A stretch of 64,000 nucleotides of DNA from Pseudonocardia oceani (lineage in GTDB: Bacteria; Actinomycetota; Actinomycetes; Mycobacteriales; Pseudonocardiaceae). Both the position numbers and the translations under genes were made by a program. The stretch spans positions 6,144,501-6,208,500 of the forward strand of contig NZ_JADQDF010000001.1 of assembly GCF_019263585.2 (NCBI RefSeq), in the 5' to 3' direction. Shown here piece after piece: positions 44,126 through 46,065 of this stretch. The stretch's first letter is position 1, and each line of letters opens with the position of its first letter. The notes under the pieces were generated by a model that saw only the letters and a program-made list of their open reading frames with translations, was not told the DNA's origin and searched no databases.

Positions 44126-44160
44126 CATTCGATCATCGGGCAGCGCAATAGGCTGTGCGC

Positions 44161-46065
44161 GTGCCGCTCGACGAGTACCGCCGCAAGCGCGACTCCGCCC
44201 GCACGCCGGAGCCCGTCCCGGAGCAGGACCGCCACGCCGAGGGCCCGGGCACGCGCTTCGTCATCCAGGAGCACCACGCCCGGCGGCTGCACTGGGACGT
44301 GCGCCTGGAGCGCGACGGCGTGCTCGTCTCGTGGGCGGTGCCCAAGGGCCTGCCGCCCGACGACGAGACCGTCCGCCTCGCCGTCCGCACCGAGGACCAC
44401 CCCCTCGAGTACCTGGACTTCCACGGCGAGATCCCGGCGGGCGAGTACGGCGGCGGGACCATGACGATCTGGGACACCGGCACCTACGAGACCGAGAAGT
44501 GGCACGGCCGGGAGGTCGCCGTCGTCTTCCACGGCGAGCGAGCGAAGGGCCGCCACATCTTCATCCGGACCGGGCGGGGGGAGAACGACTGGCTGCTGCG
44601 CCGCTCCGACCCCACCCCGCCCGGCCAGGAACCGCTCCCCCACGACGCCCGCCCGATGCTCGCGACGCCGGGCCCGCTGCCCGGGGGCGACGACTGGTGG
44701 CTGCAGCCCGGGTTCGGCGGCCGTCGCGTGATCGTGCGGGTCGAGGGCGGCCGCGCCCGGATCACCGACGCCGACGGCGAGGACCTCACCTCCTCGCTCC
44801 CCCGCCTGCGCGGGCTGGGCCCGTCGCTCTCGGCCACCCGCGCCCTGCTCGACGGCGAGCTCGCCCCGGGCACCGACGACCTGTGGATCGGCGACCTGCT
44901 GCACCTGGACGGCCGCGACGTCGCCGGTCTGCCGTTCCACGAGCGCCGTGCGCTGCTCGACGCGCTGCCCCTGGCGGGCGCCCACTGGCGCCCGGCGCCG
45001 GTGTTCCCCGGGGCGGGCGCGGAGGTCGTGGCGGCGGTGGCGCAGCAGGGGCTGCCCTCGGTCGTCGCGAAGCGGGGGGACTCCCCCTACGCGCCGGGCC
45101 CGAGCGACGACTGGGTGGAGGTGGCCACCGGATCGGGCGGGCCCGCACCGGAGGCGCCGGCGCCGCCACGGCGCACGGGCGTCGGCAAGGCGCGGCTGAC
45201 CAATCCCGACAAGGTGCTCTACCCGCTCACCGGCACCACGAAGGCGCAGGTGCTGGAGCACTACCTCGCCGTGGCCGAGGTGATGCTGCCGCACCTGCGC
45301 GACCGGCCGGTCACGATGGTCCGCTGGCCCGACGGCGTCGAGCGCGGCTCGTTCTTCGAGAAGGACGTGTCCCGGCACGCGCCCGCGTGGATCCGCACGG
45401 CCCGCGTCGGCACCCCGGGCGGACGCTCGGAGAGCGCCGACTTCCCCGTCATCGAGGACGTCAAGGGCCTCGCCTGGGCGGCCAACCTCGCCGCGCTGGA
45501 GCTGCACGTGCCCCAGTGGCGCGTCGGCCCGCGCGACGGCCGGCACCTGCCCGACCTCGTGGTGTTCGACCTCGACCCGGGCGAGGGCACCACGGTCGTC
45601 GACTGCGCGCGGGTCGCGCTGCGCATCGCCGAGCGCATCGCCGACGACGGCCTCGTGGCCTACCCGCGCACCAGCGGCGGCAAGGGCATGCAGCTCTACC
45701 TGCCGGTCCGGGTGTCGCGGGCCGAGCAGACCTCGGAGTTCGCGAAGGCGCTGGCCGAGGAGCTCGCCTCCGACGACCCGAAGCGGGTCACCGCGGTGAT
45801 GGCGAAGGCGCGCCGCCGCGGCCGGATCTTCGTCGACTGGAGCCAGAACAACCCGCACAAGACGACGATCGGCAGCTACTCGCTGCGCGGTCGCGCCCGC
45901 CCGACGGTGGCCACGCCCGTCACGTGGGACGAGGTGGCCGCCTGCCGGCGCACCGAGGACCTCACGTTCACCCTGGCCGACCTGCCCGCGCGGATCGCCG
46001 AGCACGGCGACCTGATGGCCCCCCTGCTGGGCGAGCCGCAGCGGCTGCCCCGCCTAGGCTCCTGA
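44161..46065 (+). CDS. LigD-like protein: phosphoesterase, inactive ligase-like and polymerase domains
   Basis: This protein has 634 residues. Residues ~30-150 form the 3'-phosphoesterase domain (FVIQEHHARRLHWDVRLERD; VSWAVPKGLP; HPLEYLDFHGEIPAGEYGGG). Residues ~160-320 are ligase-like (RALLDGELAPG; LLHLDGRDVAGLPFHERRAL; VVAKRGDSPY), but the catalytic lysine motif is LQPGFGGRR instead of EPKWDGxR and the OB fold is missing. Residues ~345-610 form the archaeo-eukaryotic primase-type polymerase, with VFDLDPGEG (D470, D472) and TSGGKGMQLY. It acts in non-homologous end joining, probably by end processing and fill-in. GTG 44161 follows TAGGCT by six bases. Confidence 0.87.
   Translation: MPLDEYRRKRDSARTPEPVPEQDRHAEGPGTRFVIQEHHARRLHWDVRLERDGVLVSWAVPKGLPPDDETVRLAVRTEDHPLEYLDFHGEIPAGEYGGGTMTIWDTGTYETEKWHGREVAVVFHGERAKGRHIFIRTGRGENDWLLRRSDPTPPGQEPLPHDARPMLATPGPLPGGDDWWLQPGFGGRRVIVRVEGGRARITDADGEDLTSSLPRLRGLGPSLSATRALLDGELAPGTDDLWIGDLLHLDGRDVAGLPFHERRALLDALPLAGAHWRPAPVFPGAGAEVVAAVAQQGLPSVVAKRGDSPYAPGPSDDWVEVATGSGGPAPEAPAPPRRTGVGKARLTNPDKVLYPLTGTTKAQVLEHYLAVAEVMLPHLRDRPVTMVRWPDGVERGSFFEKDVSRHAPAWIRTARVGTPGGRSESADFPVIEDVKGLAWAANLAALELHVPQWRVGPRDGRHLPDLVVFDLDPGEGTTVVDCARVALRIAERIADDGLVAYPRTSGGKGMQLYLPVRVSRAEQTSEFAKALAEELASDDPKRVTAVMAKARRRGRIFVDWSQNNPHKTTIGSYSLRGRARPTVATPVTWDEVAACRRTEDLTFTLADLPARIAEHGDLMAPLLGEPQRLPRLGS

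Follow-up and report, generated by a model that had tools for sequence, protein, structure and literature searches.

A LigD-lineage protein of Pseudonocardia with a catalytically dismantled ligase domain

The gene and its product

The window analysed here is a stretch of 64,000 nucleotides from Pseudonocardia oceani (contig NZ_JADQDF010000001.1 of RefSeq assembly GCF_019263585.2, positions 6,144,501 to 6,208,500), and it carries a gene for a 634-residue protein of the LigD lineage, in which a 3'-phosphoesterase (PE) domain, a ligase-like domain and a primase-polymerase (POL) domain follow one another in one chain. The ligase-like domain corresponds to the nucleotidyltransferase (NTase) half of the LigD ligase domain (LIG), which in other proteins is followed by an OB domain. 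It lacks the catalytic lysine in every Pseudonocardia copy that could be read and is kept in frame under purifying selection. The features of the gene, counted from the first nucleotide of the window, are the following.

44161..46065, forward strand: PE - pseudo-ligase - POL gene, 634 codons plus stop, GTG start, with orthologues in Pseudonocardia
44167..44610, forward strand: LigD 3'-phosphoesterase (PE) domain, residues about 3-150, from PF13298 and residue counts
44632..45126, forward strand: pseudo-ligase NTase domain, residues about 158-322, without the Lys of motif I and the Glu of motif IV, with Glu for the Lys of motif V and no OB domain after it
44701..44727, forward strand: motif I LQPGFGGRR, residues 181-189, G184 opposite Lys481 and R189 opposite Arg486 of Mycobacterium tuberculosis LigD
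44848..44859, forward strand: motif III remnant LDGE, residues 230-233, D231 and E233 (Glu530) present in 50/50 orthologues
45052..45090, forward strand: motif IV remnant LPSVVAKRGDSPY, residues 298-310, Pro299 at the place of the metal-binding Glu613
45127..45183, forward strand: variable linker, residues about 323-341, from its median ratio of nonsynonymous to synonymous substitution (dN/dS) of 0.73 and from locus layouts
45187..46020, forward strand: LigD primase-polymerase (POL) domain, residues about 343-620, from PF21686 and residue counts

An alternative in-frame GTG start lies at 44155, two codons upstream of 44161. The domain order phosphoesterase, ligase-like, polymerase, which the original prediction had given from the letters of the sequence, is confirmed by the Pfam matches to LigD_N (PF13298) at residues 36-136 (E 2.8e-37) and to LigD_Prim-Pol (PF21686) at residues 360-618 (E 1.4e-87). 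Between these two, the Pfam model DNA_ligase_A_M gives only a partial match below threshold (residues 245-319, 17.1 bits against a cut-off of 26.2), while the ligase domain of M. tuberculosis LigD (1vs0) aligns to the middle segment with E 7.9e-18 in a sequence search. The Pfam search lists no match of the OB domain PF04679 in the protein; the ligase-like part ends at about residue 322 and POL starts at about residue 343, so that a linker of about 20 residues replaces the OB domain, whose loss had been predicted. Among the NCBIfam models, the domain models TIGR02777 (PE) and TIGR02778 (POL) are passed, the ligase-domain model TIGR02779 gives a partial match of 65.5 bits, against a cut-off of 227.75, and the full-length LigD models stay below their curated cut-offs (PRK09632, 644.3 of 989 bits; TIGR02776, 291 of 373.2 bits). 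As a LigD protein it thus has a PE domain with the metal-binding His/His/Asp and a POL domain with DxD and the third Asp, and it lacks the catalytic lysine and motifs IV and V of the ligase domain as well as the OB domain after the NTase.

The conservation of these residues was followed in a sample of 60 Pseudonocardia genomes, from which 50 orthologues were aligned, one of them (L047) beginning at a contig edge. The PE residues H38, H44, D46, R48, H80 and Y84 are kept in 49/49 rows that cover the region, and their counterparts in Pseudomonas aeruginosa LigD are H42, H48, D50, R52, H84 and Y88 (PMC8656161). The POL residues D470, D472, D559, S505 and R576 are kept in 50/50 orthologues. The POL position of M. 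tuberculosis His178, a triphosphate contact in that protein, is occupied by Q511 (45691-45693), and Gln is found there in 49 of the 50 Pseudonocardia copies.

The P. aeruginosa LigD has the order PE-LIG-POL, as in the window protein. The two share the catalytic residues of PE and differ in the ligase domain, which in the window protein is without catalytic residues and OB domain. The M. tuberculosis LigD (LIG in PDB 1vs0, 6nhx and 6nhz; POL in 2iru) has the same three domains with mostly the same PE and POL catalytic residues, but the window protein lacks its Lys481, Glu613, Arg501, Lys635 and OB domain and has Gln for POL His178, and the order in M. tuberculosis is POL-PE-LIG, unlike that of the window protein (PMC5124664). 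LigD domain order varies between species (PMC8656161), and in Streptomyces LIG and POL are encoded on stand-alone genes (PMC5124664). Shuffling of LigD domains and stand-alone domains are therefore already known. A limited open-access literature search found no description of a lysine-less LigD ligase domain, nor of a LigD whose ligase domain is dismantled in its catalytic residues throughout a genus and yet under selection.

Active site of the ligase-like domain

The segment contains DGELAP, LLHLDGRDVAGLPF and VAKRGDSPY, as the original prediction had quoted them, and the nucleophilic lysine motif indeed reads LQPGFGGRR, with the lysine gone. Residues 156-323 were modelled from an alignment of 71 sequences, and the model has a mean predicted local distance difference test score (pLDDT) of 96.4 and a predicted template modelling score (pTM) of 0.91. 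It superposes on the NTase half of M. tuberculosis LigD (6nhz) with Z 22.3 and a root-mean-square deviation of 2.1 over 167 of 168 residues, and matches archaeal and human ligases somewhat less closely. In a model of the full-length protein, pLDDT is 77-96 in blocks over residues 161-320. The full NTase fold is predicted to be intact.

The residues of the active site were counted, in M. tuberculosis LigD numbering, in 42 Pseudonocardia rows out of 51 in-frame copies. In M. tuberculosis LigD, Lys481 acts as the nucleophile and Glu613 as a metal ligand, and His465, Arg501 and Lys635 touch the ATP phosphates (PMC8656161). In the Pseudonocardia rows, position 481 is Gly in 21, Arg in 12, Val in six, Ala in two and Leu in one, the position of Asp483 is Gly in 42/42, that of Glu613 is Pro in 40/42, that of Lys635 is Glu in 36/42, and position 465 is Pro in 35/42. 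Position 501 is never Arg and the Phe of motif IIIa is absent in all 42 rows, while Arg486 and Glu530, which contact the ribose, are kept in all 42. As a control, 14 intact PE-LIG-OB rows and five intact LIG-OB rows keep all ten positions checked, and the alignment of the active site is therefore sound.

From these residues, no nick sealing by the window protein is expected. The NTase could still take part in ligation in trans, with a partner ligase lending it either the OB domain or an adenylated lysine, and the predicted retention of the whole NTase fold would suit such a role; the protein has none of Lys481, Glu613, Lys635, Arg501 and OB domain, however, and Glu613Ala alone abolishes nick sealing by M. 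tuberculosis LigD (PMC8656161), which makes ligation in trans highly improbable.

Conservation in Pseudonocardia

The motif I lysine is found in 0/50 aligned orthologues, in which F185, G186, G187 and R189 around its position are invariant (50/50), and the 49 other aligned copies share 61-96% identity with the window protein. An intact 51st in-frame copy, that of G021, has the motif QVAFGGAPV, without lysine and without Arg, and ends at a TGA that is a normal stop; it is not among the 50 aligned copies and enters none of the alignment counts. The gene is split over contig ends in two genomes (G018, G029), interrupted in 3/60 (G052, L262; G030, L263; G047, L264) and decayed to fragments in 1/60 (G020, L265), and an orthologue was not found in 3/60 (G002, G003, G019). 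The motif is readable and lysine-less in G021 and in the six split, interrupted or decayed copies, which gives 57/57 readable Pseudonocardia copies without the lysine. The loss, which the original prediction had described for this one protein, with conservation in orthologues as a check, is thus genus-wide, and it extends to related proteins, as described below.

A mutation of a single strain, which had been named beforehand as what would overturn the prediction, and a sequencing error are both rejected by the 50/50 aligned orthologues and the seven further copies without lysine. An artefact of sequencing or annotation, such as a frameshift in a GC-rich gene, has nothing specific in its favour, apart from the frames interrupted in three of the genomes, and it is refuted by the single open frame and by the same missing residues in the 49 other aligned copies, so that it is next to impossible.

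Selection on the domains

The dN/dS values are Nei-Gojobori counts over hand-picked pairs, some of which share rows, and they rank the segments rather than give exact values. Over 22 Pseudonocardia pairs the median dN/dS is 0.148 for PE, 0.208 for the pseudo-ligase domain and 0.122 for POL, and the linker, used as an internal yardstick, has a median of 0.73 over 21 pairs. Intact LIG of sister genera has a median of 0.15 over 19 pairs, and PE there one of 0.164. Lysine-less LIG domains of the Nonomuraea/Actinomadura type have 0.214 over seven pairs (Nonomuraea, Actinomadura and one Streptosporangiaceae metagenome-assembled genome, MAG), and those of Amycolatopsis have 0.132 over four pairs. In the pseudo-ligase domain, 30/165 positions are conserved in at least 98% of the 50 orthologues. 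The pseudo-ligase domain is under purifying selection, slightly weaker than that on live LIG and far stronger than that on the linker. The earlier claim that a ligase-like domain is kept in frame without its catalytic residue is hence borne out, with purifying selection in addition.

These values bear on the reading that the domain is a decaying relic, a ligase-like linker on its way out, tolerated while it folds and a step toward PE-POL fusions. In-frame PE-POL fusions without any ligase part do exist in g19 (L092-L096, L101) and in Actinomycetospora (L183, L194, L196), which likewise have PE and POL in one chain and differ from the window protein in that the ligase-like domain is wholly absent. 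Some Pseudonocardia have an interrupted or decayed copy or none, the dN/dS of the pseudo-ligase domain exceeds that of PE, POL and intact LIG, and selection against misfolding alone could explain part of the low value. Against this stand the difference of 0.21 from 0.73 in the adjoining linker, the number of strongly conserved positions and the purifying selection on lysine-less relatives (0.214 and 0.132). Simple decay is disfavoured by dN/dS and the conserved positions, and the relic reading as a whole appears rather unlikely.

Relatives and probable origin of the protein

Two hundred Pseudonocardiaceae genomes were searched. Among the top-scoring matches listed, no genus but Pseudonocardia shows the three-domain single chain, which is present in 8 of its 11 sampled genomes, and outside this genus the best matches listed are POL alone, except in G117, where the match runs through a stop. 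Most of the dissected loci of sister genera have a PE-LIG-OB gene with a separate POL open reading frame just downstream, so that the place of the linker is taken by an OB domain followed by a stop and the start of the next frame. Such pairs in Pseudonocardiaceae (for example L067, L097 and L098) are the closest relatives of PE and POL found outside the genus, with about 53-71% identity in the PE and POL stretches, but they differ in being two genes, in having the OB domain and in a motif I that is mostly EFKWDGVR, with lysine. Gln stands at the POL His178 position in 31/31 readable loci from outside Pseudonocardia, a count in which 12/43 loci are unread and some are the same gene fetched twice; two other POL domains of the window genome have His there, and the matches among further loci have His in 18 and Gln in 18. 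Because sister genera hold PE-LIG-OB and a separate POL that shares the change of His178 to Gln, the fused gene probably arose by fusion of such an operon (PE-LIG-OB, then POL) in the Pseudonocardia ancestor, together with loss of OB and of ligase chemistry.

Lysine-less LIG domains linked to PE are found in other layouts as well. In a set of 94 rows with PE and LIG, the lysine is present in 51 and absent from 43, and 50/56 PE-LIG-OB rows have it. The g22 proteins (L066, L082) are PE-LIG without OB, with Lys replaced by Ala or Arg and with POL separate, and the Amycolatopsis-type proteins (L102, L132, L135, L159, L161, L172) are PE-LIG-OB with Lys replaced by Asp or Ala. PE-LIG proteins with neither lysine nor OB are L078, L187, L191 and an 11-row clade from Nonomuraea, Actinomadura and two MAGs; the stand-alone Nonomuraea/Actinomadura proteins (L165, L166, L175 and others) resemble the window protein in having PE and an NTase without lysine and OB, and differ in being unfused to POL and in their motif I, EFAWGGRR. 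L065 (g42) has the reversed order LIG-PE and the lysine-less motif GFAWGGRR.

All trees were quick ones, with support from the Shimodaira-Hasegawa-like approximate likelihood ratio test (SH-aLRT) only, and L065 is a long branch in them. On the 94-row PE and LIG tree, which holds 20 of 49 full-length genus rows, with repeat loci omitted and five identical rows left, the lysine label needs three changes, two of them forced by starred branches, and a grouping of all 43 lysine-less rows is not rejected (approximately unbiased test p-value, p-AU, 0.09; log-likelihood 43 lower). On an 80-row NTase tree, with 14 genus rows, 18 of 58 Ku-linked LIG rows and the core of motif I masked, the label needs six changes, five forced by starred branches; the PE-linked lysine-less rows, 33 without L065, lie on one side of an unstarred branch with SH-aLRT 92, and placing the Nonomuraea/Actinomadura-type rows with the lysine-bearing L174 is at least as likely (p-AU 0.755). 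A single shared loss of the lysine for the Pseudonocardia, Amycolatopsis-type, Nonomuraea/Actinomadura-type and g22 proteins is possible, on mixed evidence. For the five lysine-less LIG domains adjacent to Ku, which are described below, these 80 rows reject a single loss (p-AU 0.0009).

The neighbourhood of the gene is conserved in 14 named Pseudonocardia loci. Upstream, on the other strand, lies what is presumably a bacterioferritin-like gene (11/14; the three loci without it start less than 500 bases from the gene), downstream a gene which we take to be glycerophosphodiesterase-like (13/14), and a presumed MFS-like gene is also a neighbour (12/14, one only 28% identical). A plasmid search returned eight records, all below 60% identity, one of which is an annotated ATP-dependent DNA ligase beside Ku.

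Residues kept in the nucleotide pocket

The retention of some pocket residues raises the reading that the pseudo-ligase domain is a reader of nucleotides or adenylates, which would sense AMP, ATP or 5'-adenylated ends from abortive ligation. The ribose contacts Arg486 and Glu530 are kept in all 42 Pseudonocardia rows, as given above. The adenine contacts Glu479 and Lys618 are kept in 8/8 rows of the Nonomuraea/Actinomadura type, in which Lys481, Glu613 and Lys635 are gone, and Glu479, Arg486, Glu530 and Lys618 are kept in 9/9 Amycolatopsis-type rows, in which Lys481 and Glu613 are gone; in addition, M. tuberculosis LigD with Lys481Met binds ATP in crystals (PMC8656161). In Pseudonocardia, however, the pocket is more dismantled than in these relatives: 38/42 rows have Gln or Arg in place of Glu479, Lys618 is missing in 9/42, the motif IIIa Phe is gone throughout, and G021 also lacks the Arg. 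Glu530 is absent in six rows of the LIG-LytS type (described below) and in two g22 rows, and the residues kept may merely stabilise the fold. For the window protein a reader function is accordingly improbable, and an adenylate-reader role is conceivable for the relatives of the Nonomuraea/Actinomadura type and the Amycolatopsis type, which keep the nucleoside contacts.

Besides their fusions to PE alone and to PE with POL, lysine-less NTase domains are also joined to a histidine-kinase domain. This last layout is found in the window genome outside the window, at C3:6111612-6113111 on the forward strand (L005/L272), where a 515-residue protein combines a lysine-less ligase (NTase and OB, motif I EVAWTGHR) with a His_kinase domain (PF06580, E 3e-13), which we take to be of the LytS type. 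Its relatives L273, L274, L280, L283 and L285 are also lysine-less, with the kinase pattern in all but L274; L277 and L278 have lysine-less motifs and were left out by the motif filter, and L275, L276, L279 and L281 have no readable motif. A broader proposal, that Actinobacteria repeatedly made the LigD-type ligase domain a non-catalytic adenylate reader, possibly of 5'-adenylated DNA ends, which would hand processing or signalling to a neighbouring domain, is speculative and improbable; the loss of phosphate and metal contacts next to kept ribose and adenine contacts in some of these lineages is what such a reader would be expected to show.

Ku, candidate sealing ligases and proposed role

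A search of the window genome (6.8 Mb, three contigs) for Ku and other ligases, as had been suggested with the prediction, gave one Ku and five PF01068 loci, of which four have the motif I lysine (L001-L004) and one (L005) does not. The only PE domain in this genome is that of the window gene, and there are four POL domains, including the gene's own. L003 keeps the checked residues of motifs I, III, IV and V. Ku is present in 58/60 Pseudonocardia genomes, and L004 has a match with an E-value of at most 1e-30 in 59/60; in 57 genomes, including the window genome, Ku has a LIG on its own contig at a distance of 42-252 bp, and in G028 the best LIG, with its lysine kept, is on a different contig from Ku.

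The reading that we consider probable, with considerable room for doubt, is that the window protein is a Ku-recruited end-processing protein of the LigD lineage which is incompetent for ligation; its pseudo-ligase domain would serve structure or docking, and another enzyme would seal the break. The original prediction had likewise suggested a structural or regulatory role in end joining, with the ligation done by a different enzyme, and such a role is still a proposal. Ku binds POL and, weakly, LIG in M. tuberculosis (PMC8656161; PMC7719229), and because the PE and POL residues are kept and the M. tuberculosis Ku contacts POL, a recruited trim-and-fill protein is to be expected. In the proposed sequence of events, Ku would recruit the protein through POL, PE would trim 3' ends and POL would fill gaps, both activities being judged from the residues kept. 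The pseudo-ligase NTase may act as a rigid module that spaces PE and POL on broken DNA or docks them there or on a partner such as Ku; its role would be structural rather than ATP-driven because the pocket lacks the phosphate contacts. Sealing would then fall to another ATP-dependent ligase, most likely the Ku-adjacent LIG if that is intact, or a different ligase encoded in the same genome.

Several observations weigh against this reading. In the window genome, Ku lies on the same contig as the gene at a distance of about 3.5 Mb. L004, divergent and beside Ku, has motif I EVKWDGMR and Thr at the position of the motif V Lys. Across the 57 genomes with a Ku-adjacent LIG, the lysine is kept in 52 and replaced by Glu or Met in five, namely L210 (G005), L255 (G055), L259 (G032), L260 (G003) and L261 (G019), and the motif IV Glu is absent in all five as well, with only the first ~190 residues matched in G003 and G019. 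The Ku-adjacent LIG is therefore no more than a candidate for the sealing enzyme, since these five are lysine-less and that of the window genome is without the motif V Lys. The activity of POL may be altered by the change of His178 to Gln. The arrangement of the domains in the full-length model is unreliable (pTM 0.49), and the gene is interrupted, decayed or not found in 7/60 genomes, in which it is therefore not essential.

Implications for bacterial end joining

If the end-processing reading is right, end processing would be split from sealing by protein architecture in bacterial end joining, and a LigD-lineage protein unable to ligate would be conserved through most of a genus, which would offer a natural test of the part that the NTase domain plays beyond catalysis. 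Lysine-less LigD-type domains also mean that counts of ligase domains overstate the capacity for ligation, even for the LIG adjacent to Ku in 5/57 genomes.

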